In this document: positions 306-28,040 of the stretch, one piece after another
Position numbering within the stretch: position 1 is the first letter of the stretch
Layout: each line of letters starts with the position of its first letter
Assembly (NCBI RefSeq): GCF_013410565.1
Contig: NZ_JACCFO010000001.1
Coordinates: 1,674,001-1,738,000, forward strand
From: Streptomonospora nanhaiensis
GTDB lineage: Bacteria > Actinomycetota > Actinomycetes > Streptosporangiales > Streptosporangiaceae
DNA length: 64,000 nucleotides
Direction of reading: 5' to 3'
The notes under the pieces: generated by a model
What the model was told of the DNA's origin: nothing
The model's input: only the letters and a program-made list of their open reading frames with translations
Databases searched by the model: none
Made by a program: the position numbers and the translations under genes

Positions 306-528
306 CAACGGAAATCGCGCACCGCGGCGCCGGAGCGCCCCCCCACGTACCGGCCCCTTCCGGGCGCGGCCGCCGACCCCCACCCCCACCCCGGCGGCGC
401 CCCCCGCAGCCTCGTCCCCGCCGCCCCCGGCCGCCGCCGCGGCCGCCCGCGGCGCACGCGGACGCCCAGCCGCTCCGGCTCGCCGAGAGCCGGTGCCCCC
501 TCGACCCCCGCGAAGGAGGTGAACCAGC

Positions 529-612
529 ATGCAGAGCTTTGACGAGTTCGAGGAGATCGTCGTGGAGTCGCAGGAGACCCCCGAGGTGTCCGACATCGAC
601 TTCGGTTGCTGA
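529..612 (+). CDS. 27-residue acidic peptide ending in Gly-Cys, possible RiPP precursor
   Basis: A strong ribosome-binding site (GAAGGAGGTGA, 511-521) precedes an ATG, giving a 27-residue peptide that starts MQSFDEFEEIVVE and ends VSDIDFGC before TGA. It is strongly acidic, with one cysteine as the last residue. The next rightward gene resembles the N-terminus of a radical-SAM/SPASM peptide maturase, which is the usual partner of such short leaders. The core would then be very short, perhaps only the C-terminal FGC. I do not recognise the family. It could instead be a leader peptide with no product of its own, but the good ribosome-binding site and the partner gene favour a real gene. Confidence 0.5.
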   Translation: MQSFDEFEEIVVESQETPEVSDIDFGC

Positions 613-759
613 CATCCCGCGTGAACGGTCCGTTCACCGAAAGACCCGGGGACGCGGACCGCGACCCAGCCGCCGCGGCGTGGCCACACACCTCGCCGCG
701 GCGGCACGCGTCCCCGCCGGCGCGCCGCGCCGGGCCCCCACCCGTACGGAGGGACCCCG

Positions 760-996
760 ATGAGCAGCAACCGCGTCTACAGGCCCTCGCGGTTCACGGT
801 GCTGGCACCACACGACGCCGGTGGTGCGGTGCTCTACAACTCCCTGCGCGGCAGTGTCTTCTACGTGCGCGACCCCCTCGCCCGGCGCGTCCACGACCTG
901 CTGCACAACCGCAGCGCCCGCTTCAGCGCCGACGAGGCCGAGGCCGGCCCCGAGCGCGCCCGGCTGATCGCCGCGCTGGCCGAGCGCGGCTACGAT
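760..996 (+). pseudogene. radical-SAM/SPASM peptide maturase, N-terminal fragment
   Basis: The ATG at 760 follows GGAGGG (748-753). About 79 residues look genuine: a beta-rich N-terminal module with phrases such as FTVLAPHDAGGAVLYNSL and VFYVRDPLARRVHDLL. This resembles the segment that precedes the CxxxCxxC radical-SAM barrel in SPASM-type RiPP maturases. From codon 80 the frame reads the antisense of the acyltransferase on the other strand, so the radical-SAM barrel, its three cysteines and the SPASM domain are all missing. The cut is at about 993-1000. Either a real inversion or deletion, or an assembly misjoin, removed the rest. The assignment rests on the N-terminal module alone. Confidence 0.45.
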
Positions 997-1440
997 GCGC
1001 ACGGCGTCGCGGAAGGTCATGTGGCCGCTGAGGTGGCCGGCCACGATCGAGCCGAGGCTGAGCCCGGCGATGTAGTCGGGGCGGTCGCGGCCGGCGCCGG
1101 TCAGCTCGTGGATGGCGGCGGCGATGGCCAGTGACGCGGGGCGCACCACGCGCCCGCTGTTGACGGCGGCGGGGTCGTCGCCGAAGAAGGCGGCGGCCAG
1201 GTCGGTGTCCAGGACGTCGGACGCCTCGGCGAACCTGCGGCGCACCAGCGGCTGGGCGTCGTAGAGGTCGCGGTAGTCGCCGGGCTGCACCACGACCTGG
1301 GGGTTGAGCAGGACCGCGCTCTTGCCGGGGCCGCCGCCGGCGGCGGTGCGGGGGCCGGCGGTGTCGGCGGGGGCGGCGGCGGTGCGGGCGTCGGGGCCGG
1401 TGGAGGCGTGGGCGGAGGTCGGCACGGGCGGGTCTCCCAT
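994..1440 (-). pseudogene. discrete malonyl-CoA-type acyltransferase, truncated
   Basis: This reads leftward from ATG 1440. After a Pro/Ala-rich leader of about 40 residues it enters an acyltransferase fold (SAVLLNPQVVVQPGDY), with the nucleophile motif GLSLGS followed by HMTFRDAVRIV. The match is to FabD-like discrete or trans-acting ATs, normally 290-320 residues; only about 149 remain. The catalytic His and the rest of the small subdomain are lost at the junction with the radical-SAM fragment. It is the last gene of the leftward ACP operon, 16 bases after the SDR stop. If intact elsewhere in the population, it could load the ACP or the PKS whose own AT is dead. As written it would not be active. 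Confidence 0.7.
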
Positions 1441-1456: not shown

Positions 1457-2276
<820 letters not shown>

Positions 2277-2287
<11 letters not shown>

Positions 2288-3479
2288 CGGCCGCCACCTC
2301 CTTCAGGGCGCCGGCGAACGCGGCCACGTCCTCGCCGGTGGTGTAGCAGGCCACGCCCGCGCGCAGCGCCGCCGGCAGGCCGGGGGCCACCGCGCCCAGG
2401 GGGCCGGGGGCGTAGAAGCGGCCGTGGGTGAGGCTGACCCCGCGCTCGGCGAACGCCTCGGCCGCCTCGGCGGCCGGCATCCCGGGCAGGAAGAAGACCT
2501 CGACGGGCACGCGGTCGCCGCCGGGGGTCAGCCTGCGCACGCCCGGGGCCGCCTCCAGGACCTGCGCCAGGTCGCGCGCCAGCGCGGCCTCGCGCTCGGC
2601 GACGGCGGCCCGGTCCCAGCCCAGCAGCACCTCGGCGGCCACGGCCGTGCCCAGCAGTTGCTCGAAGGCCAGCGTGCCCGGCTCCAGGCGGCCGGGCAGG
2701 TCGTCGCCCGCCGAGGACGGCTGCTCGGCCAGGCGCAGCGGCTCGGCCGCCTCGTCGGCGATCCACAGCACGCCGGCGTGCGGCCCGTAGAACTTGTAGG
2801 CCGAGGCGACGACGGCGTCGGCCCCCCACGCGGCGGCGTCGACCGCGCGGTGCGGCACCGCCTGCACGGCGTCGACGAAGACGCGGGCGCCCACCCGGTG
2901 GGCGGCGGCGCAGACGGCGGCGAGGTCGGGGGTTGCGCCGAGCGCGTTGGACGCCGCGCTCACGGCCACCCAGCGGGTGCGCGCGGAGAGCACGTCGGCG
3001 ACCGCGGAGGCGGGCAGCGCGCCCTCCTCCAGCCGGGCGGTGCGCACCACGGCCCCGCGGCGCCGCGCCATGGCGCGCCAGGGCGCCACGTTGGCCTCGT
3101 GGTCCAGTTCGGTGCACACGATCTCGTCGCCCGGGCGCACGTGCTCGGCGGCGGCGCGTACGAACAGGGCCGTCAGCGTGGTCATGTTGGGGCCGAAGAC
3201 GACGTGCCCGCCGGGCGCGCCCAGCAGCCGCCGCACGGCCGCGCGCGCCCACGCGGCCAGGGCGTCGGAGTGGCGGCCGGCGGGGTAGGCGCCGCCGTCG
3301 TTGGAGACCGCGGGGCCGGCCAGGTAGCCGGCCACCGCGTCGGCCACGGCCGCGTGCACCAGGGTGCCGGCGGGCCCGTCGAAGCGGGCCTGGCCGGGGC
3401 GGCGCCCGGGGAACTGGGCGGTGAGCGGCCGGGCGAGGTAGTCGGCCAGCGGGCGCGGCAGGACGTCGTCGGCCCTCAT
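2277..3479 (-). CDS. class V PLP enzyme, cysteine desulfurase-like
   Basis: This 400-residue fold-type I PLP enzyme of the aminotransferase class V/cysteine desulfurase group resembles the desulfurase-like family with an SAYKFYGPH lysine loop. Lys229 should carry PLP, Asp203 (VDAVQ) should contact the ring nitrogen, and His127 (ELDHEAN) should stack on the ring. The ATG at 3479 overlaps the oxygenase stop as ATGA. Family members remove sulfur from cysteine or catalyse related eliminations and aminations; no mobile-loop cysteine is obvious. In this operon it probably acts on an amino acid, free or carried by the stand-alone ACP, after beta-hydroxylation, for instance in elimination, amine transfer or sulfur supply. 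The exact reaction cannot be read from sequence. Confidence 0.75.
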
Positions 3480-4491
3480 CGCGGCGCCCGGGGTCCGGTG
3501 GCGCGCTGGCCGAACCCGCTCTCCCGCGCCTCGGCCTCGGGCCGGGGCCGGTCCAGCCGGACGATGGCGCGTTTGAGCCAGCGGTCGGTGCCGTCGTAGC
3601 GGGGGCGGAAGGGCCGGCGGCCGTGCACCGCCACGTCGTTGTCGATGAGGATGATGTCGCCCGCCTGGAGCGGGACCTCCTCCTCGTGGATCTCCAGGCC
3701 CTTTTCCAGCGCGGCGTAGGCGTCGGCGAACCCGGGGTCGTCGGGCAGCCGGCTGTAGGCGGGGTCGAAGCGCAGGCACGGGCCGTCGGGGGCGGCCCAC
3801 ACGGTGGCGATGCCGGGGGCGGCGACCGCCGTCCAGGACCCCGCGTCCTCGGGCGGGCGGTAGGAGTCGTCGGGGGTGATGACCACGCGCGGCCGCTCCA
3901 GCTGGGCGCGCTGGGCGTCGGTGAGGCCGACCCGGCGCACGCTGGAGACCAGGCTGCCCACGCCGTCGGGGTTGCGCAGCGCCGCCAGGAGCAGGATGTG
4001 GGGGCGCAGGGGGTGGAAGGCGTCCTCGGTGTGGCGGGTGAGGGTGGTGGTGCTGCTGGCGCCCACCTGGGCCCGCTCCTGGCCGGGGATGGGCAAGATG
4101 TTGTGCACCAGCCGCCCGCCCTGCTGGTTGGCCCAGCCGTAGAGGTCGCCCAGGGCGGCGGCCACGAGCGCCAGGCCGGTGTCGAGCGCGTTGGCCTCCT
4201 CCCCTGAGGGCCGCTCCAGTGCGGCGGGGTGGGGCCCACGGGGCCGAAGCCGTCGAGCAGGCCGGTGACGACCCGGTAGCCGCGCTCGCGGTCGGGCCGG
4301 GGCAGGGCCGCGGCCAGGGCGGCGGTGACGGGATGGGGCGGCCCGCCGGCGACGTCCTCGGGGGAGTGCCCCGCGGCCGCCAGGTCGCGGGCGGCGCGGG
4401 CCAGGGCGGCCGCCAGGGCGGGGTCGGCGGTGAACGGGGTGAGCGGCGCGGCGGTGTCGGCGCCCGGGGCCGCGCCGGTGCGGTCGGCCAT
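3476..4491 (-). CDS. Fe(II)/2-oxoglutarate oxygenase, AsnO/VioC type, with a frameshift
   Basis: A TauD-superfamily enzyme of the clavaminate synthase/asparagine oxygenase/arginine beta-hydroxylase branch. The iron motif is HTEDAFHP (His and Glu ligands) and the distal part is DNDVAVHGRRPF, giving the second His and nearby Arg for 2-oxoglutarate. The typical phrase GWANQQGGRLVHN lies before them. The first 85 or so residues, from ATG 4491 to GPTPPHW, are in one frame; the rest, from LERPSGEEANALD on, is in another, so one base is missing or two are extra near 4212-4225. The start overlaps the ACP stop (TGATG) and the end overlaps the PLP gene (ATGA). Family members hydroxylate the beta-carbon of Asn, Arg or related amino acids. 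Next to an ACP, this one may act on a carrier-bound amino acid. The frameshift would inactivate it if real. Confidence 0.8.
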
Positions 4492-4772
4492 CAGTCGCCC
4501 TCGCCGACCGGCTCGCGCACGGCCTGGCGCGCCGCGCTGTCGGCGTCGAGCGTCTCGACGATGCGGGCGAGGGTGCGGAAGGAGTCGGTGTTGGTCGAGG
4601 CGATGTCCAAGCCGTAGCGCTCGTGCAGCTCGGAGATGAAACGCAGAGTGTCCATGGAATCCAGTCCGAAGCGTGAACTGAGACCGAACAAGGGCTCGTC
4701 CGCGGCGACCTCTTCGGGGCGCACGTCGAGCTGGTAGACCTGGACAAATAGCTTTCGAATATCGTTGATCAC
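4491..4772 (-). CDS. free-standing acyl/peptidyl carrier protein
   Basis: This 93-residue protein starts at GTG 4772, preceded by AGGTG. FGLDSMDTLRF is a clear phosphopantetheine attachment motif, with Ser39 as the modified residue, in a four-helix carrier fold of normal length. It is the first gene of a tightly coupled leftward operon (ACP, oxygenase, PLP enzyme, SDR, AT). The order suggests an amino acid or acyl group is loaded here, oxidised, further processed, and then passed to the synthases encoded on the other strand. No free-standing adenylation gene is present, so loading could come from the A domain of the large synthase or from the truncated AT. Confidence 0.85.
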   Translation of the reverse strand: MINDIRKLFVQVYQLDVRPEEVAADEPLFGLSSRFGLDSMDTLRFISELHERYGLDIASTNTDSFRTLARIVETLDADSAARQAVREPVGEGD

Positions 4773-5079
4773 GGTTCACCTATTCCGCCGCGGCGGCGGC
4801 CAAAGAAGTCACGCATTGCTACCATGCATTGCCGGGATGCGGAAAGCATGCCCAACGTAGGAGCGCGTTATCGAGCGGGTCAACGCGCGTGTCCTGAACC
4901 GGACATGGCCCGCCCGCGCCATATTTCCCCTGCTAGCCTGCATGGCATGCCACCGATGAGAATGCCTTTACCTGCCCGGAAATGGCTCGCCCCGCAGTCG
5001 CGTAAACTCCGGCGTACATAGAAGTATGTACGCCGTCTCCTTTTAAAGAAGGATGTCCGCGGCATCGGAGGGTGATGCA
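4773..5079. promoter_or_regulatory. divergent promoter region between ACP operon and kinase
   Basis: This stretch of about 307 bases between two divergent operons holds no gene. It contains the strong inverted repeat at 5011-5034 and a weaker one, TGTCC-N6-GGACA, at 4890-4905. A TAAACT hexamer at 5003-5008 could be a -10 box reading right, but no good -35 is seen. Both operons are probably controlled from here. Confidence 0.55.
5011..5034. promoter_or_regulatory. perfect 10-bp inverted repeat containing GTACA-N8-TGTAC (copy 2)
   Basis: GGCGTACATA, a 4-base spacer GAAG, and TATGTACGCC form a perfect palindrome. Its core GTACA-N8-TGTAC (5014-5031) has the same arms and spacer length as the site at 196-213. 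It lies about 45 bases before the kinase start, where a repressor or activator could act. The encoded two-component system or the LuxR-type protein is the likely ligand. Confidence 0.6.
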
Positions 5080-6290
5080 ATGGTGCGCATGGTGTGGCAG
5101 GTACTGGGAAAGCGCGACGCAAAAGCCGTGGTAATAGCCGTCGCGGTCTTCTCCGCAGGGTTCGTGCTGCTCCATTCCGGCGCCTACGCCTCGCGCGACG
5201 CCTCGACGGCGTGGGCCACCACCGAGTACGGCTACCCCGCGCCGCTGCTGATCGGCACGCTGGCGCTGGTGTGCGTGGGGGTGGCCCTGCGCTACCGCGC
5301 GCCGCTGCTGGGCCTGGCCATCGGCACGGTCGGGTTCGTCAGCGACATCGTCATCGGCGCGTCGCTGGCGACCATCCTCATCTACACCGACAACATCTAC
5401 GCCGCCTGCACCTACGGCCCGCGCTCGACCTGGCAAGCTGATGCTGATGGTCACCACGACCATGAGCATCGTCATGGGCGGCGTGGTCTTCGCCATGCAG
5501 CGCCACCTGGCCGGCAGCATCATCCTCATGGCGGTCATCGCGGCCGTGCTGGTCAGCCCGGTGGTGACCGCGGCGGTGGTGCGCCAGAACCGCGACCGCG
5601 CCGAGGACGCCCGGGTGCGCGCCGAGCAGACCGCGCGGCTGGCCGAACTGGACCGGCGCAACGCCGTGGCCACCGAGCGCACCCGCATGGCGCGCGAGCT
5701 GCACGACTCCGTGGCGACCCGGCTGAGCATCATCGTGCTGCAGTCCACCGCCCTGCTGGCGCGACGACCTCGACGCCGAGACCCGGCGCCGCCTGCTCAC
5801 CACCATCCGCGAGGACAGCACCCAGGGCCTGGCCGAGCTGCGCGGCATGATCGACGTGCTGCGCGACGAGCGCGACGAGGAACCGGTGGCCGTGCCCCGG
5901 CGCATGGGCGACATCCACGACCTGGCCGAGAGCCTGGGCGAGGAGGCCACCCTGCACGTCGAGGGCGAGCCCCGGCCGCTGCCCGCGGCCGTGGAGCTGG
6001 CCGCCTTCCGGATCGTGCAGGAGTCGGTGACCAACGCGCTCAAGCACAGCGGCGGCCCCGCCCACGTGCGCGTCACCTACCGGGAGGACGAGATCGAGCT
6101 GACGATCGAGAACCCGATGACCGGCAGCGCGGTGTCGCGGCTGCCCAGCGGCAGCCTGGGCCTGACGGGCATGCGCGAGCGCGCCGAGGTGCTGGGCGGC
6201 AGCTTCGGCGCCGGCCCGGTCCCCGGCACCGGCGACTGGCGGGTGCACGCCGTGCTCCCGGCCAAGGCGGCCACGGAGGCGGTGCTGTGA
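5080..6290 (+). CDS. sensor histidine kinase (NarX/DesK group) with two frameshifts
   Basis: The ATG at 5080 is chosen because GGAGGG (5067-5072) sits 7 bases upstream. The N-terminal half has several hydrophobic segments (AVVIAVAVFSAGFVLL, PLLIGTLALVCVGVAL, MGGVVFAM and a following one), so it is a membrane sensor. Then come a coiled linker, the HisKA_3 box ARELHDSVATRLS with the phosphorylated His, and a HATPase with N-box VQESVTNALKHSG and G-box GSLGLTGMRER. Coding moves frame near 5431-5436 and again near 5762-5768, so three frames are needed to read one protein. Sequence after each break stays family-like, so errors or very recent lesions are likely. The stop overlaps the next gene's GTG (GTGA), giving a kinase-regulator pair. 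Confidence 0.8.
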
Positions 6291-6921
6291 TCCGCGTGGT
6301 GATCGCCGACGACCAGGTCGCCGTGCGGACGGGGCTGTCCCTGATCCTCGACGGCGCGCCCGACATCGACGTGGTGGCCGAGGCCGGCGACGGCAACGAG
6401 GCCGTGGCGCTGGCCCGCGACCTGCGGCCCGACGTGCTGGTGATGGACATCCGCATGCCGCGCAAGGACGGCATCACCGCCACCCGCGAACTGGCCGGGG
6501 TCACCGACGTGCTGATCATGACGACGTTCGACCTCGACGAGTACGTGTTCGGCGCCCTGCACGCCGGGGCCGCGGGGTTCCTGCTCAAGAGCGCCGACAG
6601 CGACGCGCTGCTGCAGGCGGTGCGCACGGTCGCCCGGGGCGAGGGCATGATCTCGCCCTCGGTCACCCGGCGGCTCATCCGCTCCTTCGCCGAGCGGGCG
6701 CCGCCCGCCAGGAGGCGCACCGCCTGGACTCCCTGACCCGGCGCGAGCGCGAGGTGCTCCGGTGCATCGGCGAGGGGCTGTCCAACTACGAGATCTCCGA
6801 GCGGCTGGAGATGGCCGACGCCACGGCCAAGACCCACGTCAGCCGCATCCTGTCCAAGCTCGGGCTGCGCAGCCGCGTGCAGGCGGCCATCCTCGCCCAG
6901 GAACACGAGCACGAGCTGTGA
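6287..6921 (+). CDS. NarL/FixJ response regulator with a frameshift
   Basis: The GTG at 6287 overlaps the kinase stop. The receiver domain starts MIRVVIADDQVAVRTG, has the phospho-acceptor Asp in VLVMDIRMPRKDG and the conserved Lys in FLLKSADS. The first frame ends soon after SFAERAPP. The LuxR-type HTH (SLTRREREVLRCIGEGLS, then AKTHVSRILSKLGLRSR) continues in another frame, so there is one indel near 6700-6715. It is closely similar to the regulator at 17545, including the EYVFGAL and LRSRVQAAI segments, so the two probably arose by duplication and may bind the same DNA. It should take phosphate from the adjacent kinase and control the cluster. Confidence 0.85.
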
Positions 6922-7165: not shown

Positions 7166-7863
7166 ATGCGCAGAACCGCGTCTACGCACCCGACCTGGCG
7201 GGCCACCACCCCCTCCCAGCCCGCCTACGGCGAACTGCTGAGGTTCGCCGCGTCCTTCACCAAGGACTTCTCCGCGATCGTCCCCTGGCAGTGGGTCCCC
7301 GGGCTGGTGATGACCGCCGCGCGCGGCGACCGCCGGGCCGCCCCGGGCGGCCCCGCCTCCTGCCGCGTCGCCTGCGTGGGCGGCGGCACCGGCGCCTCGG
7401 CGCCCGCGTGGCCGCCCTCCACCGAGGTCCGCCAACTGGCGGCCTCCCCCATCTGGCTGGCCATCGGCGACCGCCGCGCCGCCTTCATCGCACCGGCGTC
7501 CGGACATCACCGCGGTCGGGCGTGGATCACGACCGACTCCGACGACGTGCGGACCGCCAAGGGCTTCTTCGAACTCGCCTGGTGCGGCGCCCGGCGCGGC
7601 TCTCCCGCGCGGGCCACCGAGCGCAGGTCGGCGGTGCTGCTGTGCCTGGCCCGCGGGCTCACCGACGCCGCCATCGCCAAGCGGCTCAACGTCACCGACC
7701 GCACGGTGCGCCGCGAGATCAGCTCGCTCATGCGCGACACCGGCTCCACCACGCGCTTCCAACTGGGCCTGCGCACCGCGCTGGGCGGCGTGGGGCTGCC
7801 CTCGCTGGCCCTGCCGCCGGGGCCGGCCGACGCCGAGGAGTACGACGGCCAGGAGGTGTCGGC

Positions 7864-7867
<4 letters not shown>
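7166..7867 (+). CDS. LuxR-type transcriptional regulator without receiver
   Basis: A 233-residue protein starts at ATG 7166, with CGAGG 8 bases upstream. The C-terminal 60 residues are a LuxR-type HTH (CLARGLTDAAIAKRLNV, then DRTVRREISSLM). The N-terminal 150 residues show no receiver Asp and no Walker motif, so it is a pathway-specific regulator of the small LuxR type often found in antibiotic clusters. Its stop overlaps the GTG of the giant synthase (GTGA), so regulator and synthase are translated from one message. The regulator would therefore be autoregulated if it acts on this promoter. Confidence 0.75.
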
Positions 7868-14772
<6,905 letters not shown>

Positions 14773-18233: not shown

Positions 18234-18980
18234 TCAGCGCGCGGCCGCGCCGGGCCGCGCGGCCGCCGGCGGGCGCCACCGCAGCAGCGCCACCGCCAGC
18301 ACCACCGCCCACAGATGGCCCGGCCACAGCGCCAGGCGCTCGAACAGGCCGCTGAAGTGCTCGACGTCCACCCGGGCGGCGAACACGGCGGTGCCCGCCA
18401 CGCACACCACGCCCACGGCGATGGTGGACCAGCCCAGCAGCCGCCGGTGGCGGCGCAGCGCCACGCCGGTGGTGATGAGCGCGCACGGCTGGGCGACGAA
18501 CACCGGCAGGGAGGCGAGGGTGTGCGCGGCCGGCGCGCGGTCCAGGGGGAACACCCCGCTGCCGACGGCGCTCAGCCCGGCGGCCACCCACAGCGCCACC
18601 GCCGCCCGCGCGGCGCGGTCGCGGGGCAGCCGGGCGGCCAGGAGGACCGCGCCGGCGGCCAGCGCCAGGCCCAGCACGACGAACGCCGTGTTCATCACCG
18701 GGCTCCACGGCGAGCACACCGGCACCGGGCCGTGGGCGTACTCCACCCGCGTGCACGAGGTGGCCCCGAGGTCGCTGATGGCGTTGTCGAGGAAGGAGTA
18801 GGGCGCGGTGAAGCGGCTTGCGGTGACGGCCTCGGCCGCCAGGTAGAGCGGCTGGGCCAGCCACAGCAGCGCGCCCGCCGCCACGGCCGCCCCGCCGGGG
18901 CGGGGCAGGCGGCGGGCGCGGAGGGCGGTGCCGGTGCGGGCGGCTTTGGCGGGGTGCTCCCGGGGCGGGGGTGGGGCCAT
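18234..18980 (-). CDS. DUF998 family integral membrane protein
   Basis: A 248-residue protein with about six transmembrane segments, for example AVAAGALLWLAQPLYLAAEA, VLGLALAAGAVLLAA, VALWVAAGLSAVGSG and VVLAVALLRW. The conserved feature between TM1 and TM2 is YSFLDNAISDLGATSC, typical of DUF998, where an N-x-x-S-D-L-G motif follows the first helix. The function of this family is not established. It stands alone, in a different orientation from the neighbouring cluster, and looks like ordinary genome rather than part of the pathway. Confidence 0.75.
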   Translation of the reverse strand: MAPPPPREHPAKAARTGTALRARRLPRPGGAAVAAGALLWLAQPLYLAAEAVTASRFTAPYSFLDNAISDLGATSCTRVEYAHGPVPVCSPWSPVMNTAFVVLGLALAAGAVLLAARLPRDRAARAAVALWVAAGLSAVGSGVFPLDRAPAAHTLASLPVFVAQPCALITTGVALRRHRRLLGWSTIAVGVVCVAGTAVFAARVDVEHFSGLFERLALWPGHLWAVVLAVALLRWRPPAAARPGAAAR

Positions 18981-19264
18981 GCGCTGCTCCTGGGGGGCCG
19001 GCGGCCCGGGAGGCCGGTGCGGGGCCGGCCGGCCGGGCGCGTGCGGGCCGCGTCGGGGGCGCGGCGGAGAGCGTCCCGTTCGCGATGGGTCGCGGCCGGA
19101 CTACCCGCGGCCGCGACCGCGAAACGCGGTGGTCCGGTCGCAGTGGGTGACCGCGCAGGTCCGCGCACGGGCCGGCGGCGGCGCGCGGAGGTTCGGCGGA
19201 GGCCCCCGGCGGAGCGACGCGCCCCGCCGGGACCCCGCCCGGCCCGGTCTCGGCCGGCCCGGCG

Positions 19265-21544
19265 TTAGGCCGTCCGCTCCGCGCCGCGCGGGGTGTAGAC
19301 CACCGACCGCGCCCGGCGCGGGGTGACCACCTCGCGCAGGGCGGGGTCGACCAGCAGCACCACGGGGGCGATCCGGTTCTCCTCGACCGGGTACCAGGCG
19401 GGCAGCGCCGCCTCGATCGCGGCCCAGGCGGCGTCGGTGTCGCCCTCGGCCGCCAGGGCGCGGGCGGCGGCCAGGGCCGCCTCGAACTCGGGCGGCTCGG
19501 GGAGTTCCCGCCCGGCCAGCCAGTCCGCCACGGCGGGGTCGTCCAGGGCGTCGCCCTGGGGCACCGGCACGCCGGGCAGCATCTCGGCGAGCTGGGCGGC
19601 CCAGTGCCGCCGGGCGTCGGCCGGGGTGGCGGCGTTGAGGTCGGACCGGCTGCGGTTGAGGTAGAGCGGCACGGCCTCGGCGCGCAGCCGCTCGGGGCCC
19701 ACGGCGGCGGCCACGTGCTCCCGGTGCAGCACGTGGCGCAGGTCGTGGTGGCTGAAGCGGGGCTCGGTGAACGCCTCCAGCAGGACGCGCAGGTAGGAGG
19801 CGGCGCCGGAGCCCTTGTCCTCGGCCTTCTCGTAGGCGTCCAGCGCGCCCTGGACGTCGCCGCGCAGCGCGGCGCGGTTGCCCTCGCGCAGGAGGTCGTC
19901 GGCGCCCTCGGGGTGCACCGGGTTGCCCGAGGAGCCCTCAAGGGACTCCCAGCCGCGGCGCTCCTCGACCACGAGGTCGGCGAAGGAGCGGAAGCGGTCG
20001 CTCAGGCCGGGGAACCAGCTCGCCCAGATGTAGGCGGCCCACTCGCCGTCGGGCGAGACGTCGCCGGCGTCCAGCAGCCAGAACTGGGCGTCGCTCTCGC
20101 CGGAGATGAAGAGCGCCGGCCCCTTCAGTCCGTCTTCGTCGAACACGTAGTCGGGCTCCAGAGGCTGGTCCGGGTGCTCGTGCAGCCAGTGGACGTCGGC
20201 GGCGCCCAGCAGCTCGTAGGTGAACCCGCTGATGTTGGTCCAGCCGTTGGAGGCGGCGAGGAACGCGCGGTAACTGGGCGGCAGCGCGGTGCCCAACCGC
20301 TCCTCCAGCGCCGCCAGCTCGGCCTCGGTGGCACCCTCGAACCCCAGCCAGGAGGCGGCGCGCTGGTCGTCGGTGACGTCGATCAGGTCGTCGGCGCTCA
20401 CCCGCAGCATGTCGGCGCTGTAGGAGGACAGGAAGGCGCGCCAGTCCTCGGGGGTGGTCAGCCGGGACGGGTCGGAGAGGACGGCGGGCGGTCGGCGGCC
20501 CTGCTCCACGTAGCCGCGGAAGGGGCCGGAGGCGGGCACGATCGGCTCGGTGGAGGGGCGGGCGGCGACCCCGCCGTAGGGCTCGGGTTCCCGTCCCGGC
20601 GCGTGGCGGTGGCCGGCGAAGGACTCGTGGAGGGGGCCGGAGGAGAAGAACCGCACCCGCTCGAGCTGGGTGCAGTCGGCGCCGCCGTTGCGCAGGACGC
20701 GCAGCCGGAAGTGGCGGTAGGGGGTCTCGCGCGCGGGGCCGGTGATGTCGAAGCCGCGGAGGTGGTGGCGGTCGGGGAACACCTCGTCGGTGCGGGTGTC
20801 CAGCTCGGTCCAGGTCTCGCCGTCGACCGAGCCGCTGAGCACCCACTCGCGGGGGTCGCGCTCGGCGAAGTCGTTGGCGGAGGTCAGCGTGTAGTAGCGG
20901 ACCACCACGGGTTCGACCATGGTGAAGCGCAGCCAGCAGGGGCCGGGCTCCGGCGCCAGCCACTTGTCGGAGCGCACGTGCAGGACGGACTCGGCGACCT
21001 CGCCGGCCTCGGTGAACTCGGCGCTGGCGGCGACCTCGCGCACGCTGCCGGTGACCTCGCCGCCGGCGGGCAGCCCGCCGGTCCGCAGCGCGACGGCGCC
21101 CCCGCCGCCGGCGCGGTCCGTCCAGGACAGGCGGGTCAGGGTGGCGCCGCCGTCGGCCACGAGCAGCGCCAGCTCCTCGCCGTCGGATCCCCCGGTGGTG
21201 ACGGCGAACCGCTGCGGCTCGGGGTCGACGGCCGGCTCCACGGCGTGGCCGCGCCACTCCTCGGGCGTGCCGCCGGCGGCGGTGCGCACGCCGAGGAAGG
21301 CGGACATGTCGGGCGCGAAGGAGACCACCGCGTCGGCGCCGCCGATGTCGCGCCAGGAGAGCTGGGCGAGCGCCACGGGCTCGCCCGGCTCGAAGCGGAG
21401 GGTCAGCGTCCGGTAGGCGTGCCACTCCCCGCCGCCGAAGGGGCGGCGCTCCGTGCGGAAGGCGAGGGCGCGCGGTGCGGCGGCGGGCGCGTCGGGGGAC
21501 TCGGGGGTGTCGGCGGCGCCGGGGGTGTCGGCGGTGTCGGGCAT
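19265..21544 (-). CDS. large discoidin (F5/8C)-SUKH protein
   Basis: A 759-residue cytosolic-looking protein with no signal peptide. ATG 21544 is chosen because upstream sequence in this frame is not protein-like. Residues about 20-310 are beta-rich; their last part (VRYYTLTSANDFAERDP, SVDGETWTELDTRTD and YRHFRLRVLRNGG) matches the core of a discoidin/F5-8C domain. Residues about 395-500 (TEAELAALEERLG, PPSYRAFLAASNGW) match SMI1/KNR4 (SUKH). The C-terminal 220 residues are helical and may contain TPR-like repeats. SUKH domains often serve as immunity proteins against polymorphic toxins or as protein-binding modules; here one is embedded in a large multidomain protein with no toxin gene beside it. 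Confidence 0.7.
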   Translation of the reverse strand: MPDTADTPGAADTPESPDAPAAAPRALAFRTERRPFGGGEWHAYRTLTLRFEPGEPVALAQLSWRDIGGADAVVSFAPDMSAFLGVRTAAGGTPEEWRGHAVEPAVDPEPQRFAVTTGGSDGEELALLVADGGATLTRLSWTDRAGGGGAVALRTGGLPAGGEVTGSVREVAASAEFTEAGEVAESVLHVRSDKWLAPEPGPCWLRFTMVEPVVVRYYTLTSANDFAERDPREWVLSGSVDGETWTELDTRTDEVFPDRHHLRGFDITGPARETPYRHFRLRVLRNGGADCTQLERVRFFSSGPLHESFAGHRHAPGREPEPYGGVAARPSTEPIVPASGPFRGYVEQGRRPPAVLSDPSRLTTPEDWRAFLSSYSADMLRVSADDLIDVTDDQRAASWLGFEGATEAELAALEERLGTALPPSYRAFLAASNGWTNISGFTYELLGAADVHWLHEHPDQPLEPDYVFDEDGLKGPALFISGESDAQFWLLDAGDVSPDGEWAAYIWASWFPGLSDRFRSFADLVVEERRGWESLEGSSGNPVHPEGADDLLREGNRAALRGDVQGALDAYEKAEDKGSGAASYLRVLLEAFTEPRFSHHDLRHVLHREHVAAAVGPERLRAEAVPLYLNRSRSDLNAATPADARRHWAAQLAEMLPGVPVPQGDALDDPAVADWLAGRELPEPPEFEAALAAARALAAEGDTDAAWAAIEAALPAWYPVEENRIAPVVLLVDPALREVVTPRRARSVVYTPRGAERTA

Positions 21545-22018
21545 GGGGTTCCTCGGGGGGACGGGCACCCGGGAGAGGGGGCGGGGTTCTGGCGGTTCGG
21601 CTTGAAAGCGCGAGCAGACTACCGCCCGGCTACGACAACGCCCGCCGGCCCGCCGGCGCCCGTCCACTGTGGCGGTGGTCACAACGTTTCGCGCGTCCGG
21701 CTCCCGCCGGGGACCGGCCCCCGGCACCCCCGGCGGCCCCGCTCCACGGGCGCGCGGCACCGCCCGCCCGCCGCCACCTGCGCCGCGCCCGCCCCCGTCG
21801 CGGGCCGGCGGGGGTGGGGGGGCGTGCCCCCGCGCGACGCGGCGCATCCGGGCCGCGCCGGTTAGGGGCGGGTCGGACCGCAGCCCGCCGCCGGCCGAAA
21901 CATCGGGTGCGGAACCGCGCGGGCCGGCGTGCCGTTGGCGCGGATGACGACGGACGCGCCGCCGCCCCGGCTGGAGCGGGGCGGCACGCGGGCGCGTCCT
22001 CCCCTTGGAAAGGTCAGG
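21545..22018. other. divergent intergenic region, no gene seen
   Basis: About 474 bases lie between the discoidin-SUKH gene and Spo0M, which are transcribed apart. Promoters for both should lie here. No clear hexamer pair, repeat or small coding frame is recognised; most of it is over 75% GC. The Spo0M ribosome-binding site GGAAAGGTCAGG is at its right end. Confidence 0.5.
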
Positions 22019-22996
22019 ATGGGCTTCAAACGTTTTCTCGCGGCCTTCGGCGTGGGCGGCCCCAGTGTCGACACGGTGCTCACCGGATACGGCACCCGCC
22101 CCGGCGCGCTGCTGGAGGGCCACGTCGAGCTGACCGGCGGTGAGGTCGAGGCCCGCATCGACGAGATCGCCGTGGCGCTGGCCGCCCGCGTGGAACTGGA
22201 GTCGGACGAGGGCGAGCAGGCCGCGGGCGCGGAGTTCGCCCGGGTCCCGGTGATCGGCCCCCTCACCCTGGCGCCGGGCGAGCGGCGCTCGCTGCCGTTC
22301 CGCTACCCGGTGCCCTGGCAGGCGCCCATCACCGACACCGCGCACGGCCCGCTGCCGGGCGCGGTGCTGGGCCTGCGCACCGAGGTGGTGATCGAGCGCG
22401 CCCCCGACAAGGGCGACCTCGACCCGGTGCGGATCCACCCCCTGGCGGCGCAGGAGCGGGTGCTGGACGCGTTCGCCCGGCTCGGGTTCACCCTCAAGCG
22501 CACCGACATCGAGACCGGGCACCTGGCCGGCACCCGCCAGGAGTTCCCCCTGTTCCAGGAGATCGAGTTCCACCCGGCGCCGCACTACGCCCACGAGATC
22601 GGCGAGGTCGAGCTGACCTTCGTCGCCGACCCCCACGGCATGGACGTGGTGGTGGAGTTCGACCGGCGCGGCGGCATGTTCACCCCGGGCGGCGACCTCT
22701 ACGGGCTGTTCCGCGTGGAGCACCGCGACGCCGACCGGCTGGACTGGACCGAGGTGGCGGCCTCCTGGATCGACCACGCGCTGGACCGCCACCGCGCGCT
22801 GTTCGGCGGCTACTCGGGCCACGGGCACGGCGGCTACCACCCCGGCCACGACGACGACCACGGCGGCGGGCTCGGCGGGGTGGCCGGGCTGGCGCTGGGC
22901 GCGGCGGGCGGCTTGGCGGCCGGCTACGCCGCCGCCGAGATCGTCGACGAGGTCGGCGACCTCTTCGAGGGCGAGGAGGAGGACGCCGAGGAGTAG
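22019..22996 (+). CDS. sporulation-control protein Spo0M-like
   Basis: A 325-residue arrestin-fold protein. The start is typical of the family (MGFKRFLAAFGVGGPSVDTVL), followed by LLEGHVELTGG and a long beta-sandwich with LPFRYPVPWQAPITD. The C-terminal part (EVELTFVADPHGMDVVVEFDRRGG) leads to a tail rich in Gly and His (GYSGHGHGGYHPGHDDDHGG), an alanine/glycine hydrophobic stretch and an acidic end. Spo0M influences sporulation and cell division in Bacillus and is widespread in actinobacteria. The His-rich tail might bind metal. The gene stands alone and ends in a shared hairpin. Confidence 0.85.
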   Translation: MGFKRFLAAFGVGGPSVDTVLTGYGTRPGALLEGHVELTGGEVEARIDEIAVALAARVELESDEGEQAAGAEFARVPVIGPLTLAPGERRSLPFRYPVPWQAPITDTAHGPLPGAVLGLRTEVVIERAPDKGDLDPVRIHPLAAQERVLDAFARLGFTLKRTDIETGHLAGTRQEFPLFQEIEFHPAPHYAHEIGEVELTFVADPHGMDVVVEFDRRGGMFTPGGDLYGLFRVEHRDADRLDWTEVAASWIDHALDRHRALFGGYSGHGHGGYHPGHDDDHGGGLGGVAGLALGAAGGLAAGYAAAEIVDEVGDLFEGEEEDAEE

Positions 22997-23023
22997 CCCG
23001 CGCGGCGGGCCGGGGCGGCGCGC

Positions 23024-23050
23024 GGGGCGGGCGCGCCCGGCGCCCGCCCC
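23024..23050. terminator. bidirectional hairpin between convergent genes
   Basis: Perfect 11-bp arms (GGGGCGGGCGC and GCGCCCGCCCC) with a 5-base loop lie between the Spo0M and CocE-type genes, whose 3' ends face each other. Confidence 0.75.
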
Positions 23051-23057
23051 CCGCCCC

Positions 23058-25100
23058 TCACAGCAGGTCGCGCGGTCGGGTCTCGGACCACTCTCGGGAG
23101 AACACCCGGCGGTCGCCCTCGTAGGCGTCCAGGGTGGCGTGCACCAGGAACTCCTCGGCGGTGCACGACAGCACCGTGCGGGTCACGGTGGTGGTCTGCC
23201 AGTCGCCGCGCCCGAACCGCATCGTCCAGGTGGACTCCCCGCTCACCGAGGTGAAGTCGTCGGCGAAGGACTCGTACTCCTCGTAGGCGCGCCGGCCCAC
23301 CTCCATGCCGACGTCGTCGAACCGCACCGTGCCGTTGTCCTTGACGATCTCCAGCGCGGAGCGGTAGTCCACCAGGTCGCGGCGGACCTCCCAGCGGTGC
23401 TCGTCGGGCTCCAGCCGGGTCGTGGCCGCGCGCGGCGCGCCCTCCGGTTCGCCGAACGGCTCCGGCTCGGTGCCCTCGGGGGCGTCGAGCGGGCGCACCG
23501 GCAGCAGCAGCGCGCTGTCCCGGGGGTAGACGGTCAGCAGCGCGGGCTCGGGCGGCGGCCAGGCCAGGGGCCAGTAGGAGCTGGACAGCGACAGCCGGAT
23601 CCGGTGGCCGGCCGGGAACGCCTGCGCCACCCCGTTGAGCTGCACCCGCACCCGGTAGCGGCGGCCGGGCTCCAGCGGCTCGGGGTGGTCGTGGCTGTCG
23701 CGGTGGGTGAGGTTGAGCAGGCCGTAGGTCACCCGCGTGGCGCGGCCGTCGGGGGCCACGTCGGAGAGCCGCGCGGCGACCATGGCCACCGGCCGGTCGG
23801 CCGACACCGACAGCTCCACCACCGGGGCGCCCAGGATCTCGGTGCGCTCGCGCAGCACGGGGGTGTTGAACACCAGCGAGCCGCCGTCCTCCTCGCGCTG
23901 GTCGTAGGGCAGGTCGGGCGGGGCGTTGTAGGAGGCCCACTTGCCGGCGAACTGGCCCACCGACAGCGGCGAGCGCACGGTGAGCCCCCCGCCGGAGTCG
24001 GCGCCGGCGTCGGCCGGGCGGCTGCCCGGCGGCTCGATGCGGTTCTCGCTGAGGGGGTAGGCGCGCACGTCCACGTTGGGCGAGGGCAGCTCCGGCTCGC
24101 CGACCCAGCGGCCCGGCCGCTCCTCGTAGGAGGTTGAGGGGGGCACGCTGTCCTGCATCCAGGCGCGCAGCACGGGGCCGTCCATCACCCCGTTGTCCAC
24201 GCCCTTGAGCCAGTGGTCCCACCAGCGCACCACCTCCTGGAGGTAGCCGATGGCCGGGCCGGGCTCGCCCAGGTGCGGGAACTTGTGCGACCAGGGCCCG
24301 ATGAGCCCCTTGCGCGGGACGTCCAGGCGGGCCAGCAGCCGGGTGACCGCGTTGGAGTAGCCGTCGGCCCAGCCGCTGGAGGCCAGCACCGGGCAGGCCA
24401 CCGCCGAGTAGTCCTGGCAGACCGAGGCGTGCCGCCAGTAGTCGTCGCGCCGCTGGTGGTCCAGCCAGCGCAGCACCCAGGGCCGGGTGCCCTCCAGCCG
24501 CTCGGTCCACATCTCGCGCCAGCGCTCCCCCACGACCTCGGGGTCGGGCGGGCAGGTGCCGTGGGCGAACATGGTGCCGGCCTCGGCGAGGTTGTCCGAC
24601 AGCAGGCAGCCGCCCATGTAGTGCATGTCGTCGGCGAACCGGTCGTCGGTGAAGGACGCGATGACGATCGCCTTGAGGTGCTCGGGCCGCCGGGCGGCGA
24701 CCTGGAGGGCGCTGAACGCGCCCCAGGAGATCCCCATCATGCCCACGCCGCCGTCGCACCAGGGCTGGGCGGCGACCCAGTCGATGACCGCCTCGGCGTC
24801 GGCCTGCTCCTGCTCGACGTACTCGTCGACGAGCACGCCCTCGGAGTCGCCGGTGCCGCGCAGGTCCACGCGCACGCACGCGTAGCCGTGCCCGGCGATG
24901 TAGGGGTGGTGGATGGAGTCGCGCACGGAGGTGAGGTCGCGTTTGCGGTAGGGGATGTACTCCAGGACCCCGGGCACCGGCTCCTCCTCGGCCGTGGCGG
25001 GCCGCCAGATGCGGGCCGACAGCCGGACGCCGTCGGGCATCGGGATCCAGACGTGCTCCTCTTCCTTGATGGCGTGCGGCAGCGCGGTGACCTCGCGCAT
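23058..25100 (-). CDS. CocE/NonD family alpha/beta hydrolase (S15-like)
   Basis: A 680-residue enzyme of the X-Pro dipeptidyl-peptidase/CocE family. The start is MREVTALPHA, then WIPMPDGVRLSARIWRP. VDLRGTGDSEG is a typical oxyanion-region phrase, and Ser125 in GMMGISWGAFSAL is the nucleophile. The later part is the jelly-roll domain (VFNTPVLRERTEILGAP, VRVQLNGVAQAFPAGHRIRLSLSSS). It lacks a signal peptide, so it is cytoplasmic. Members hydrolyse esters, amides or peptide bonds. It lies directly after the ATP-grasp gene on the same strand, 64 bases downstream, so the two are probably co-transcribed and act on related amide or ester substrates. Confidence 0.85.
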   Translation of the reverse strand: MREVTALPHAIKEEEHVWIPMPDGVRLSARIWRPATAEEEPVPGVLEYIPYRKRDLTSVRDSIHHPYIAGHGYACVRVDLRGTGDSEGVLVDEYVEQEQADAEAVIDWVAAQPWCDGGVGMMGISWGAFSALQVAARRPEHLKAIVIASFTDDRFADDMHYMGGCLLSDNLAEAGTMFAHGTCPPDPEVVGERWREMWTERLEGTRPWVLRWLDHQRRDDYWRHASVCQDYSAVACPVLASSGWADGYSNAVTRLLARLDVPRKGLIGPWSHKFPHLGEPGPAIGYLQEVVRWWDHWLKGVDNGVMDGPVLRAWMQDSVPPSTSYEERPGRWVGEPELPSPNVDVRAYPLSENRIEPPGSRPADAGADSGGGLTVRSPLSVGQFAGKWASYNAPPDLPYDQREEDGGSLVFNTPVLRERTEILGAPVVELSVSADRPVAMVAARLSDVAPDGRATRVTYGLLNLTHRDSHDHPEPLEPGRRYRVRVQLNGVAQAFPAGHRIRLSLSSSYWPLAWPPPEPALLTVYPRDSALLLPVRPLDAPEGTEPEPFGEPEGAPRAATTRLEPDEHRWEVRRDLVDYRSALEIVKDNGTVRFDDVGMEVGRRAYEEYESFADDFTSVSGESTWTMRFGRGDWQTTTVTRTVLSCTAEEFLVHATLDAYEGDRRVFSREWSETRPRDLL

Positions 25101-25164
25101 AAGGCCGTGGTCCTCCCTCTCGGCTCGGGGGTCGGGTCGGCTCGGGGGATCGGTGCGGGGCCGC

Positions 25165-26443
25165 TCAGCTCTCGGGCGCCTCGATGTCGTCGAACTCGTA
25201 GGTCAGGCCCTCCACGCACCGCTCGTACTTGGCGCGCAGCGCGGTCTCGTCCTCGGCCCCGATGAAGATGTGCGCCAGCTCGAAGCTGTAGCTGTCCTGG
25301 TCGATCATGTCCGACAGGCGCTGGCCGGGCCGGGGCACGACCTTGATCTTCAGGCCGGGGATCTCGGAGGTGAGCCGGTCGATCTCCTCCCGGCCGGGCA
25401 CCGACACCACGCGGGCGTCGGTGAACCGCCGGTAGTACCACTTGGCGGCCAGGGGGTAGCGGCCCCGGTTCTCCGGCATCCGGGGCTCGCGGCCCAGGCC
25501 CAGGCTGACCATGAAGTCGTGGTTGGGCAGGCCGTCGACGTACTCGAACAGCTCGGCGTGGGACTGGGAGTGCCGGGTGTTGATCTCCAGCAGGTTGATG
25601 TCGCCGGTCAGCGGGTCGTAGAAGTACTCGATGCTGTAGGTGGCGGAGTCCAGGCCCACCTGGGCGATGACGCGGCGGGAGATGTCGTCCAGCCGGGCCA
25701 CCACGTCCTGGCCCAGCACCGAGGGGTACTGGTGGCGCAGGAACACGGGGCTGCCGGGGTAGTCGACGGAGTCCAGCGCCCCGTAGACGACCACCTCGCC
25801 GTTGTGCACGTAGCCCTCGACCGCCACCTGGACGCCCTGCAGCGCCTCCTCGGCCAGGCACGCCTGCCCGCCGGCCTCGGCCACCTCGGGCGGCAGGTCC
25901 AACCGGGCCAGGATCCGCTCGAAGGGCCGGCCGATACGGCCGATGCCCTCGCGGATCCGGTCCACCGCCTCGGTGAACTCCTTCTCGTCCTCGACGCGGA
26001 AGGCCAGGTCGGAGGAGAACGACTTCACCGGCTTGAGCCACATGGGGAACTCCAGCCCCTCGGGCGGGCGGGCGTCGCCCTCCAGGTCCACCAGCGCGAA
26101 GCGCGGCAGCTCGGAGTCACCTTGCTCTGCTCCAGGCGGCTCCAGTACTTGTGCTCGCACTGGTGCCGGGCAGGCCGTACTCGGAGGTGAGGATCGGCAC
26201 GATCATGCTGACCGGGAAGTCCCAGTAGCCCACGATCGCGTCGATGTCGCCGTCGAAGCCGTCCAGCTGCGCCCGCGCCTTGTCCAGCAGCGCCTCGATG
26301 TCCACCTCGCCCTCCTGCAGCTCCTCGGGCTCCAGCAGCCCGTGGAACCGCAGCCGCGCCGCGTCGGGCACGTGCTCCAGGGTCTCGCGGTTCTTGGCGT
26401 CCAGTCCCACGACGAAGACGTTCTTCGGCTCGCCGGTGTCCAT
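25165..26443 (-). CDS. ATP-grasp ligase with two close frameshifts
   Basis: The ATG at 26443 follows GGAGG closely (MDTGEPKNVFVVGLDAKN). The N-terminal domain runs to PILTSEYGLPG. Then about 40 bases (26120-26160) read in a third frame as EHKYWSRLEQSKV, which is what this family shows at that point, and the rest resumes from SELPRFALVDLEG in yet another frame. All three frames are therefore needed. The ATP-grasp part includes MWLKPVKSFSS, VAVEGYVHNGEVVVYG, and the metal-binding run INLLEINTRHSQ. The family joins a carboxylate to an amine or thiol through acyl phosphate, as in carnosine or cyanophycin-like ligases. The substrate is unknown. The gene is likely intact in the organism and broken by sequence errors. 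Confidence 0.75.
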
Positions 26444-26730
26444 CAAACCTCCACTGTTCCCGTCGTCCGTGGGTCGCGCGGCTACCCCGACCGGCGCGGA
26501 ACTACCGTCCGCCCGCTTGGCTGGCCCCGGAGAGCCCGGCCACACCGGGGTCCGCGCCCCTCAGCGGCGGCGGGCGCGGGCGCGGGGAAGCGCGACGCCG
26601 GCGTCCGCGTCGGCACCGGCTGTCCGCTTCCGGTCGTTCACGCCCACACCGCCTTAAGCCACGCAATCGTGTCTATATTGGTCGCTCCCACATTAGATAC
26701 GCTTCCGTAGCTTATTGAGGTGGTCCCCGC
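26444..26730. other. divergent promoter region, ATP-grasp / DUF418
   Basis: No gene is seen. The right end (about 26650-26720) is the only clearly AT-rich stretch and holds TATATT and TAGATA hexamers that could be -10 boxes reading right towards the DUF418 gene. No -35 at proper spacing is convincing. Confidence 0.4.
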
Positions 26731-27990
26731 ATGTCCGACGACGCCCCGCCCCACTCCGCGCCCGCAATGCGGCAGCCTCCCGGCGACCCGGTGTCCGGCG
26801 CCGGCCGCGTGCCGAGCACCGCCGCCGGCACCCCGCCCACCGCACCGCCCGCCCCGCTCCCGCCGGCGCGGCGCGACCTCGCCCCCGACCTCGCGCGCGG
26901 CTTCATGCTGCTGGTCATCGCCACCGTGCACGCGCACCTGTTCCGCGTGGCCACCGGCGCGGGCGGCTTCACCCTCGACGGCACGCTCGACGTCGTCGCG
27001 ACCGCCGTGATGGCCCTGTTCGCCGAGAACCGCGGCTACCCGATGTTCGCGGCCCTCTTCGGCTACGGCCTCGCCCAGATCCACCGCCGCCGCACCGACG
27101 AGGGGCGGCCCTGGCCATGGGTCCGCCGCCTGCTGCGGCGCCGCGGCCGCTGGCTGGTGGTCATCGGCGTCGCCCACACGGCGCTGCTGTTCTACGGCGA
27201 CATCATCTCGGTCTACGGCCTCATCGCGCTCGCCTTCGTCGCGATGCTGCGCTTCACCGACCGCCGCCTGCTCACCCACGCCTTCGCCTGGATGGCGGCG
27301 GGCACCCTGGCCTATTCCGCCGCGCAGAACCTGGTGTTCGGCGCCGCCCAGGAGCCGACGGGCGGGCAGAACCCCGGGCCCCTGCTGGACGTCCTGTTCC
27401 GGCTGATGACCCTGCCCGTGTTCTGGCCGCTGATGATCGCCATCTCGGTGTTCCCGTTCCTCATGGGCGTCTGGGCGGAGCGCCGCCGGCTGCTGGAGGC
27501 GCCCGGCCGCCACCGCGCCCTGCTGGTGCGGATCGCCGCCGGCGGAATCGGCCTGGCGGTGCTCGGCGGGATCCCGCAGGCCCTCGTCAACGTCGAGGTG
27601 TGGAGCGTGGGCCCGGTGGCCGCCACGGCGGTCTTCTGGGTGCACCTGCTCACCGGCTACGCCGGCGGGTTCGGCTACGCCGCCGCGATCGCCCTGGTGG
27701 CGCCGCGCCTCGGCCGGCGGCGCGGACCGGTCACGGCCGCGCTCGCCGCCACCGGCCGGCGCTCCATGACCGCCTACCTCCTCCAGTCGGTGGTGTGGGC
27801 GGCCCTCATCCCGCCCTACGCGCTGAACGTCGCCCCCGGCCTCGGCGACGCCCAGGCCGTGGCACTGGGCGTGGGGGTGTGGCTGGCCACGGTCGTGATC
27901 TGCGACATGCTGCGCCGCGCCGGCTTCCGCCAGGGCCCGGCCGAGTGGTTCCTGCGCCGCATGACCTACGGCCGCCCCGCCCGCGGCTGA
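26731..27990 (+). CDS. DUF418 family membrane protein (YeiB-like)
   Basis: A 419-residue protein starts at ATG 26731 and has a 45-residue Pro/Ala-rich leader. Eight to ten hydrophobic segments follow, beginning DLARGFMLLVIATVHAH, with a later DUF418 signature region GRRSMTAYLLQSVVWAAL. DUF418 proteins often accompany acyltransferase-3-type folds; the group is of unknown function but has been linked to transport. It is a single-gene unit that converges on the glycosyltransferase operon. Confidence 0.8.
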   Translation: MSDDAPPHSAPAMRQPPGDPVSGAGRVPSTAAGTPPTAPPAPLPPARRDLAPDLARGFMLLVIATVHAHLFRVATGAGGFTLDGTLDVVATAVMALFAENRGYPMFAALFGYGLAQIHRRRTDEGRPWPWVRRLLRRRGRWLVVIGVAHTALLFYGDIISVYGLIALAFVAMLRFTDRRLLTHAFAWMAAGTLAYSAAQNLVFGAAQEPTGGQNPGPLLDVLFRLMTLPVFWPLMIAISVFPFLMGVWAERRRLLEAPGRHRALLVRIAAGGIGLAVLGGIPQALVNVEVWSVGPVAATAVFWVHLLTGYAGGFGYAAAIALVAPRLGRRRGPVTAALAATGRRSMTAYLLQSVVWAALIPPYALNVAPGLGDAQAVALGVGVWLATVVICDMLRRAGFRQGPAEWFLRRMTYGRPARG

Positions 27991-27998
27991 CGCCCCGT

Positions 27999-28016
27999 CC
28001 CGCCCGCGCGGGCGGG
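27999..28016. terminator. hairpin between convergent genes
   Basis: Eight-bp arms CCCGCCCG and CGGGCGGG with a 2-base loop lie in the 50-base gap between DUF418 and the glycosyltransferase. The loop is very short, so the formed stem would be about 7 bp. Confidence 0.5.
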
Positions 28017-28040
28017 AGCGGACGCCCCGTGGACCGCGCC

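Follow-up and report, generated by a model that had tools for sequence, protein, structure and literature searches.

How do two convergent genes come to end at the same base, and does such a junction join two biosynthetic systems or break one? The question is raised by a 64,000-nucleotide stretch of DNA from Streptomonospora nanhaiensis (hereafter the window; contig NZ_JACCFO010000001.1, positions 1,674,001 to 1,738,000), in which a rightward gene for a radical SAM (rSAM)/SPASM peptide maturase and a leftward gene for a discrete acyltransferase stop together. We put the probability at about 0.85 that one blunt deletion of 10,706 bp cut both genes, breaking one ancestral cluster. Such a deletion scar is ordinary gene-cluster decay, of low interest alone. 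The small linked gene set to which the scar belongs is found across several actinobacterial genera, where it joins a radical SAM peptide pathway to a dedicated acyl-chain pathway, and strains of Murinocardiopsis, Actinomadura and Nocardiopsis offer unbroken versions on which it can be tested.

The junction and the missing segment

The sequence-only reading had placed the cut in both genes at about 993-1000. This was borne out, and the exact junction lies between bases 994 and 995 (994..995), where the homologue matches of both genes stop. The open reading frame that begins at 760 on the plus strand matches the intact 460-aa rSAM of Streptomonospora mangrovi in its first 78 codons only, to base 994, and is the 5' remnant of the maturase gene (760..994, plus strand). 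From the other side, the frame that begins at 1440 on the minus strand matches an intact 387-aa, FabD-like acyltransferase of S. mangrovi (AT1) in its N-terminal part only, down to base 995, leaving a 5' remnant of about 149 codons (995..1440, minus strand). Past the junction each frame reads the antisense of the other gene, and the resulting chimeras of 124 aa (760-1134, plus) and 268 aa (634-1440, minus) are meaningless. The rSAM remnant is without any Fe-S cysteine, the first in S. mangrovi being C114 of the CxxxCxxC motif. The AT1 remnant retains the GLSLGS nucleophile and has lost the catalytic-His region with all that lies downstream.

In S. mangrovi S1-112 (our genome G003), of the same genus, both genes are intact on a single contig, NZ_JAJAQC010000025.1, in the same relative orientation. 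Window positions 500-994 align to this contig at about 96% identity and positions 995-1600 at 85-92%, on the same strand and 10,706 bp apart; the DNA that is absent from the window corresponds to positions 18742-29447 (C16 in our numbering). Collinearity with S. mangrovi extends for about 39 kb to the left of the junction and about 19 kb to the right. The lost segment was sought across the strain's own 2-contig, 100%-complete genome and is absent; besides the flanks, the hits were confined to family and repeat matches that are short or of low identity. Since the intact genes and the 10,706 bp stand on one S. mangrovi contig and the segment is nowhere in the genome that lacks it, a simple deletion is favored for the one genome of this species that was sampled. 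The two genes are convergent, so that a single deletion takes the C-terminal halves of both at one base, and no inversion is needed.

The join itself is blunt. The window reads GGCTACG up to the junction and ATGCGC from it, while in S. mangrovi the left side goes on with TGGTG and the right side is preceded by GGGTC; comparison of the two sequences reveals neither inserted nor shared bases at the join. Within 40 bp on either side the longest shared word is 6 bp, below the background mean of 7.3. Deletion by homology or between repeats was rejected, as the breakpoints carry no repeat or microhomology above background. Breakage would instead have been rejoined by end-joining without homology.

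Gene content and linkage across genera

Read from S. mangrovi, the deletion took the 3' part of the rSAM gene, seven whole genes and the 3' part of the AT1 gene, in the order rSAM, beta-propeller protein, JmjC cupin, HxD..H protein, MFS transporter, KASIII, GNAT, AT2 and AT1. The intact rSAM (L017:16300-17682, in the S. mangrovi locus) matches PF04055 (3.2e-18) and has the cysteines of an rSAM/SPASM enzyme, CNFRCTYC and seven C-terminal residues (346, 365, 406, 409, 415, 420 and 432), their invariance being that of a two-sequence alignment. The 329-aa propeller protein has no Pfam match; its predicted model, of moderate quality (pLDDT 64), resembles WD40-type seven-bladed propellers. The first cupin (cupA) matches JmjC_2 (1.7e-20). 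The HxD..H protein (cupB, 417 aa), a candidate second cupin, has H152-x-D154 and H220 invariant in four sequences; it found no match in Pfam, nor in the PDB by sequence profile, and its structural model is of low confidence (pLDDT 57). The KASIII is of the FabH type, above the NCBIfam cutoffs of both PRK09352 and fabH. The GNAT, an enzyme type to which GdvG also belongs, is followed by a repeat-rich intergenic stretch and then by AT2, a VinK-like acyltransferase that carries PF21124 (VinK_C) and matches PDB entries 5czc/5czd (1.5e-78), which we take to be VinK, the vicenistatin acyltransferase. The GNAT-AT2 gap of S. mangrovi (L017:8000-9100) holds a GC-rich repeat array with many related, low-identity copies elsewhere in both genomes.

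Several genes of the cluster survive in the window. A gene for a RiPP precursor peptide of 27 aa, MQSFDEFEEIVVESQETPEVSDIDFGC (529..612, plus strand), is intact and does not differ from its S. mangrovi counterpart. On the minus strand lie a class-V, NifS-like aminotransferase (2277..3797, the true start lying downstream of the upper coordinate; PF00266, 1.1e-52), which is syntenic in Murinocardiopsis and in a further genome, G173; a TauD-like dioxygenase (3476..4747, with the true start inside the frame; PF02668, 4.5e-12); and an intact acyl carrier protein (ACP; 4491..4772; PF00550, 9.3e-08). The aminotransferase and the TauD-like enzyme are additions found in Streptomonospora, Murinocardiopsis and G173.

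Precursors of 22-27 aa with the C-terminal sequence EVS[DSAV]IDFGC are located upstream of the rSAM gene in several genera and in G173, a short conserved peptide adjoining a peptide maturase gene, as in a RiPP cluster. A DNA pattern for the EVSxIDFGC tail matched 3 of 394 genomes of the class. In two of these the match immediately precedes an intact rSAM gene, and the third match is the one in the window; the reversed-pattern control gave none. The conserved C-terminal core contains no Lys or Arg in the precursor alignment, and no source of Lys or Orn. No family was found for the precursor by hmmscan.

Did the rearrangement create a RiPP-polyketide hybrid, as the sequence-only reading supposed for a real junction? 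That proposal was wrong: the cluster is conserved in at least eight loci and runs in one direction in some of them. In eight loci the rSAM-propeller-cupA genes lie close to KASIII-GNAT-AT1-AT2, together with SDR and ACP where the locus reaches far enough, and several genera keep the precursor, rSAM, beta-propeller, JmjC enzyme, KASIII, ACP, GNAT, SDR and two acyltransferases together. Murinocardiopsis flavida has linked matches at 44-80% identity to every one of the 16 queries, which ran from the precursor to the response regulator, and the cluster genes are linked likewise in G173. The internal order varies. In the stretches examined of Actinomadura sp. WMMA1423 and of a Janibacter MAG, the genes for KASIII, ACP, GNAT, SDR and the acyltransferases follow the rSAM genes co-directionally. 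A different arrangement is seen in Nocardiopsis prasina, N. alkaliphila, N. eucommiae and 'Streptomonospora' nanhaiensis, where the rSAM genes have the acyl genes on their upstream side. None of about 70 more distant rSAM relatives (up to 45% identity) carries the linked set. Linkage of the same genes in several genera indicates that the rearrangement broke a hybrid system rather than creating one. The window is not to be read as a RiPP-polyketide fusion, and no product is to be expected from it.

Alternatively, with the deletion real, the RiPP genes might make one product and the KASIII/AT/SDR/ACP genes another, the two sets being mere neighbors. In Nocardiopsis flavescens (L074) and genome G154 (L066) the stretch examined contains an rSAM of about 60% identity and a propeller gene but none of the acyl genes, and the Nocardiopsis loci that have both blocks side by side show them in the other order. 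Against this stand the linkage in eight loci of several genera despite their differing internal orders, and the single-direction arrays of the Actinomadura and Janibacter loci. We consider two separate products rather unlikely, and one ancestral cluster the better description.

Some of these loci call for separate comment. No precursor ending in GC was found in the N. flavescens locus; this locus and that of G154 may be RiPP-only versions or have an altered precursor. In N. eucommiae the rSAM is in two pieces separated by a frame break (L088:10001-11358) and the KASIII and AT1 matches are partial; this genome is 84% complete, and either errors or decay may be responsible.

Misassembly, other rearrangements and the remaining genes

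The main rival reading is an assembly misjoin, with the 10.7 kb present in the strain and omitted by the assembler. On the sequence-only reading, close relatives that keep the two genes whole, along with the DNA between them, would have shown a misassembly. Such relatives exist, but that inference was too strong, as a lineage-specific deletion fits them equally well. The small frameshifts nearby do hint at a possibly imperfect local base quality. However, the junction has no repeat that could mislead an assembler, the segment leaves no trace on either contig, and the 22 control genes of the same assembly are undisturbed. Two further observations, on the adjacent SDR and on substitution rates, also weigh against a misjoin.

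The SDR ketoreductase gene (1457..2287, minus strand), with its stop codon 17 bp away from where AT1 starts, has two independent inactivating changes. An 18-bp in-frame deletion removes the six residues LMGTLH after the catalytic Asn, and Cys replaces the catalytic Ser that stands 13 residues ahead of the YxxxK Tyr. Seven relatives retain this Ser and align without a gap at LMGTLH, and the enzyme of the window is probably inactive. Relative to S. mangrovi, the AT1 remnant has a dN/dS of 0.89, compared with 0.19 in the rSAM remnant and 0.21 in ACP, values from short sequences without a significance test. Together with the lesions of the neighboring genes and the unchanged precursor gene, these ratios suggest that the loss is fairly recent and that some parts of the cluster are under relaxed constraint. 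Taking this indirect evidence together, a misjoin is quite unlikely and a real deletion is favored; we infer that the leftover cluster genes are now decaying.

Further to the right, a sensor histidine kinase gene (5053..6290, plus strand), intact in S. mangrovi and syntenic in Murinocardiopsis and G173, has two small frameshifts, at about 5435 and 5759, and the response regulator gene (6287..6921, plus strand) has one 1-bp deletion at about 6701. Over this pair (5053-6921) the three frameshifts are of 1-2 bp and the protein pieces remain 95-99% identical to S. mangrovi, consistent with decay or with sequencing error. Indel noise across the assembly was rejected as their source, with 0 of 22 genes disrupted in two 20-kb control regions. 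That the disruptions are localized to the cluster is suggestive only: two left-flank genes likewise show frame changes, and single-base indels may be sequencing errors, so that the frameshifts are supportive evidence rather than conclusive. A 1-bp frameshift near 11943 interrupts a large NRPS/PKS gene (window 7291-14657) that is intact in S. mangrovi, where it encodes 2431 aa, and there is a frame change near 18992 in a gene that encodes 345 aa in S. mangrovi.

As to the kind of rearrangement, an inversion or a large deletion had been proposed from the sequence, and the deletion is the part that stood, with S. mangrovi and further genera intact. Two convergent genes cut at one point superficially resemble the end of an inversion, and the missing 3' halves were expected back to back at the other breakpoint. 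A whole-genome search found no such pair, and neither the maturase barrel nor the AT C-terminus turned up anywhere in the rest of the genome; the flanks also keep the order and orientation of S. mangrovi on both sides. The chance of an inversion is negligible unless sequence is missing from the assembly. Hardly more credible is the reverse polarity, with the window ancestral and the 10.7 kb gained by insertion in the relatives: its breakpoints would be identical to those of a deletion, but the two half-genes of the window would then be original, no distant relative was seen to share them without the DNA between, and the full-length genes common to Murinocardiopsis, G173, Actinomadura and Nocardiopsis-type loci (about 45-80% protein identity) make intactness the ancestral state.

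Predicted product and related systems

Judged by its genes, the intact cluster may specify an acylated RiPP of an undescribed class, to which we give roughly even odds: an rSAM/SPASM-modified, JmjC-hydroxylated peptide with a near-invariant EVSxIDFGC end, capped by GNAT with a beta-hydroxyacyl chain that a single-round ketosynthase/AT/SDR/ACP set of the cluster would supply. Modification of the precursor core would fall to the rSAM/SPASM enzyme and to the cupins, predicted Fe/2-oxoglutarate hydroxylases. On the acyl side, AT1 would load malonyl on ACP, KASIII would condense malonyl-ACP with an acyl starter, and SDR would reduce the condensation product to beta-hydroxyacyl-ACP, with the VinK-like AT2 moving acyl groups between carriers. 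GNAT could then transfer the short beta-hydroxyacyl chain to the peptide, most likely at an amine that removal of the leader uncovers, given that Lys is lacking from the core. The N-acylated RiPP would be exported by the MFS protein. No protease was identified near the cluster.

According to PMC9505594, which lists goadvionins, lipolanthines and selidamides, RiPPs that carry a lipid are very rare. By our comparison, the cluster would work most like these three, and is a member of none. The search of the open literature, with subscription journals mostly outside it, gave no match for a radical SAM lipo-RiPP or for a RiPP with ketosynthase/JmjC genes.

In goadvionin biosynthesis, GdvG attaches a polyketide acyl chain to a peptide of ribosomal origin, and a RiPP precursor is clustered, as here, with acyl-chain machinery and an acyltransferase to join both (PMC9505594 and its ref. 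71). Differently to goadvionins, the present cluster has an rSAM/SPASM maturase and discrete, single-round KASIII, AT, SDR and ACP with no large polyketide synthase. Lipolanthines (microvionin and relatives) are also RiPPs hybridized with a polyketide or fatty acyl moiety (PMC9505594). In the present case there is no lanthipeptide synthetase among the linked genes, and the core ends in a single Cys (EVSxIDFGC); enzymes for lanthionine- or linaridin-type maturation are absent from the conserved linked genes identified.

Selidamides have, as is predicted here, both a GNAT and an Fe/2OG hydroxylase acting on a RiPP, PhaN and PhaI in the case of phaeornamide (PMC9505594). The acyl group of phaeornamide is a 3-hydroxyacyl (PMC9505594), the type that KASIII and SDR would give here. 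However, selidamides are acylated on Orn/Lys side chains with fatty acids from primary metabolism, whereas the cluster described here has a core without Lys or Arg and acyl genes of its own. Despite the GNAT, membership was rejected for the lack of Arg and Lys in the conserved C-terminal core.

Among radical SAM/SPASM RiPP maturases, TIGR04463 is the best NCBIfam match of the intact rSAM, with an E-value of 1.3e-56 over nearly the full length. Its 192 bits fall short of the 525-bit cutoff, and membership in this family was rejected; in contrast to TIGR04463 systems, the precursor is not Cys-rich. AT2, finally, matches VinK in sequence and differs in its context, which here is a RiPP cluster.
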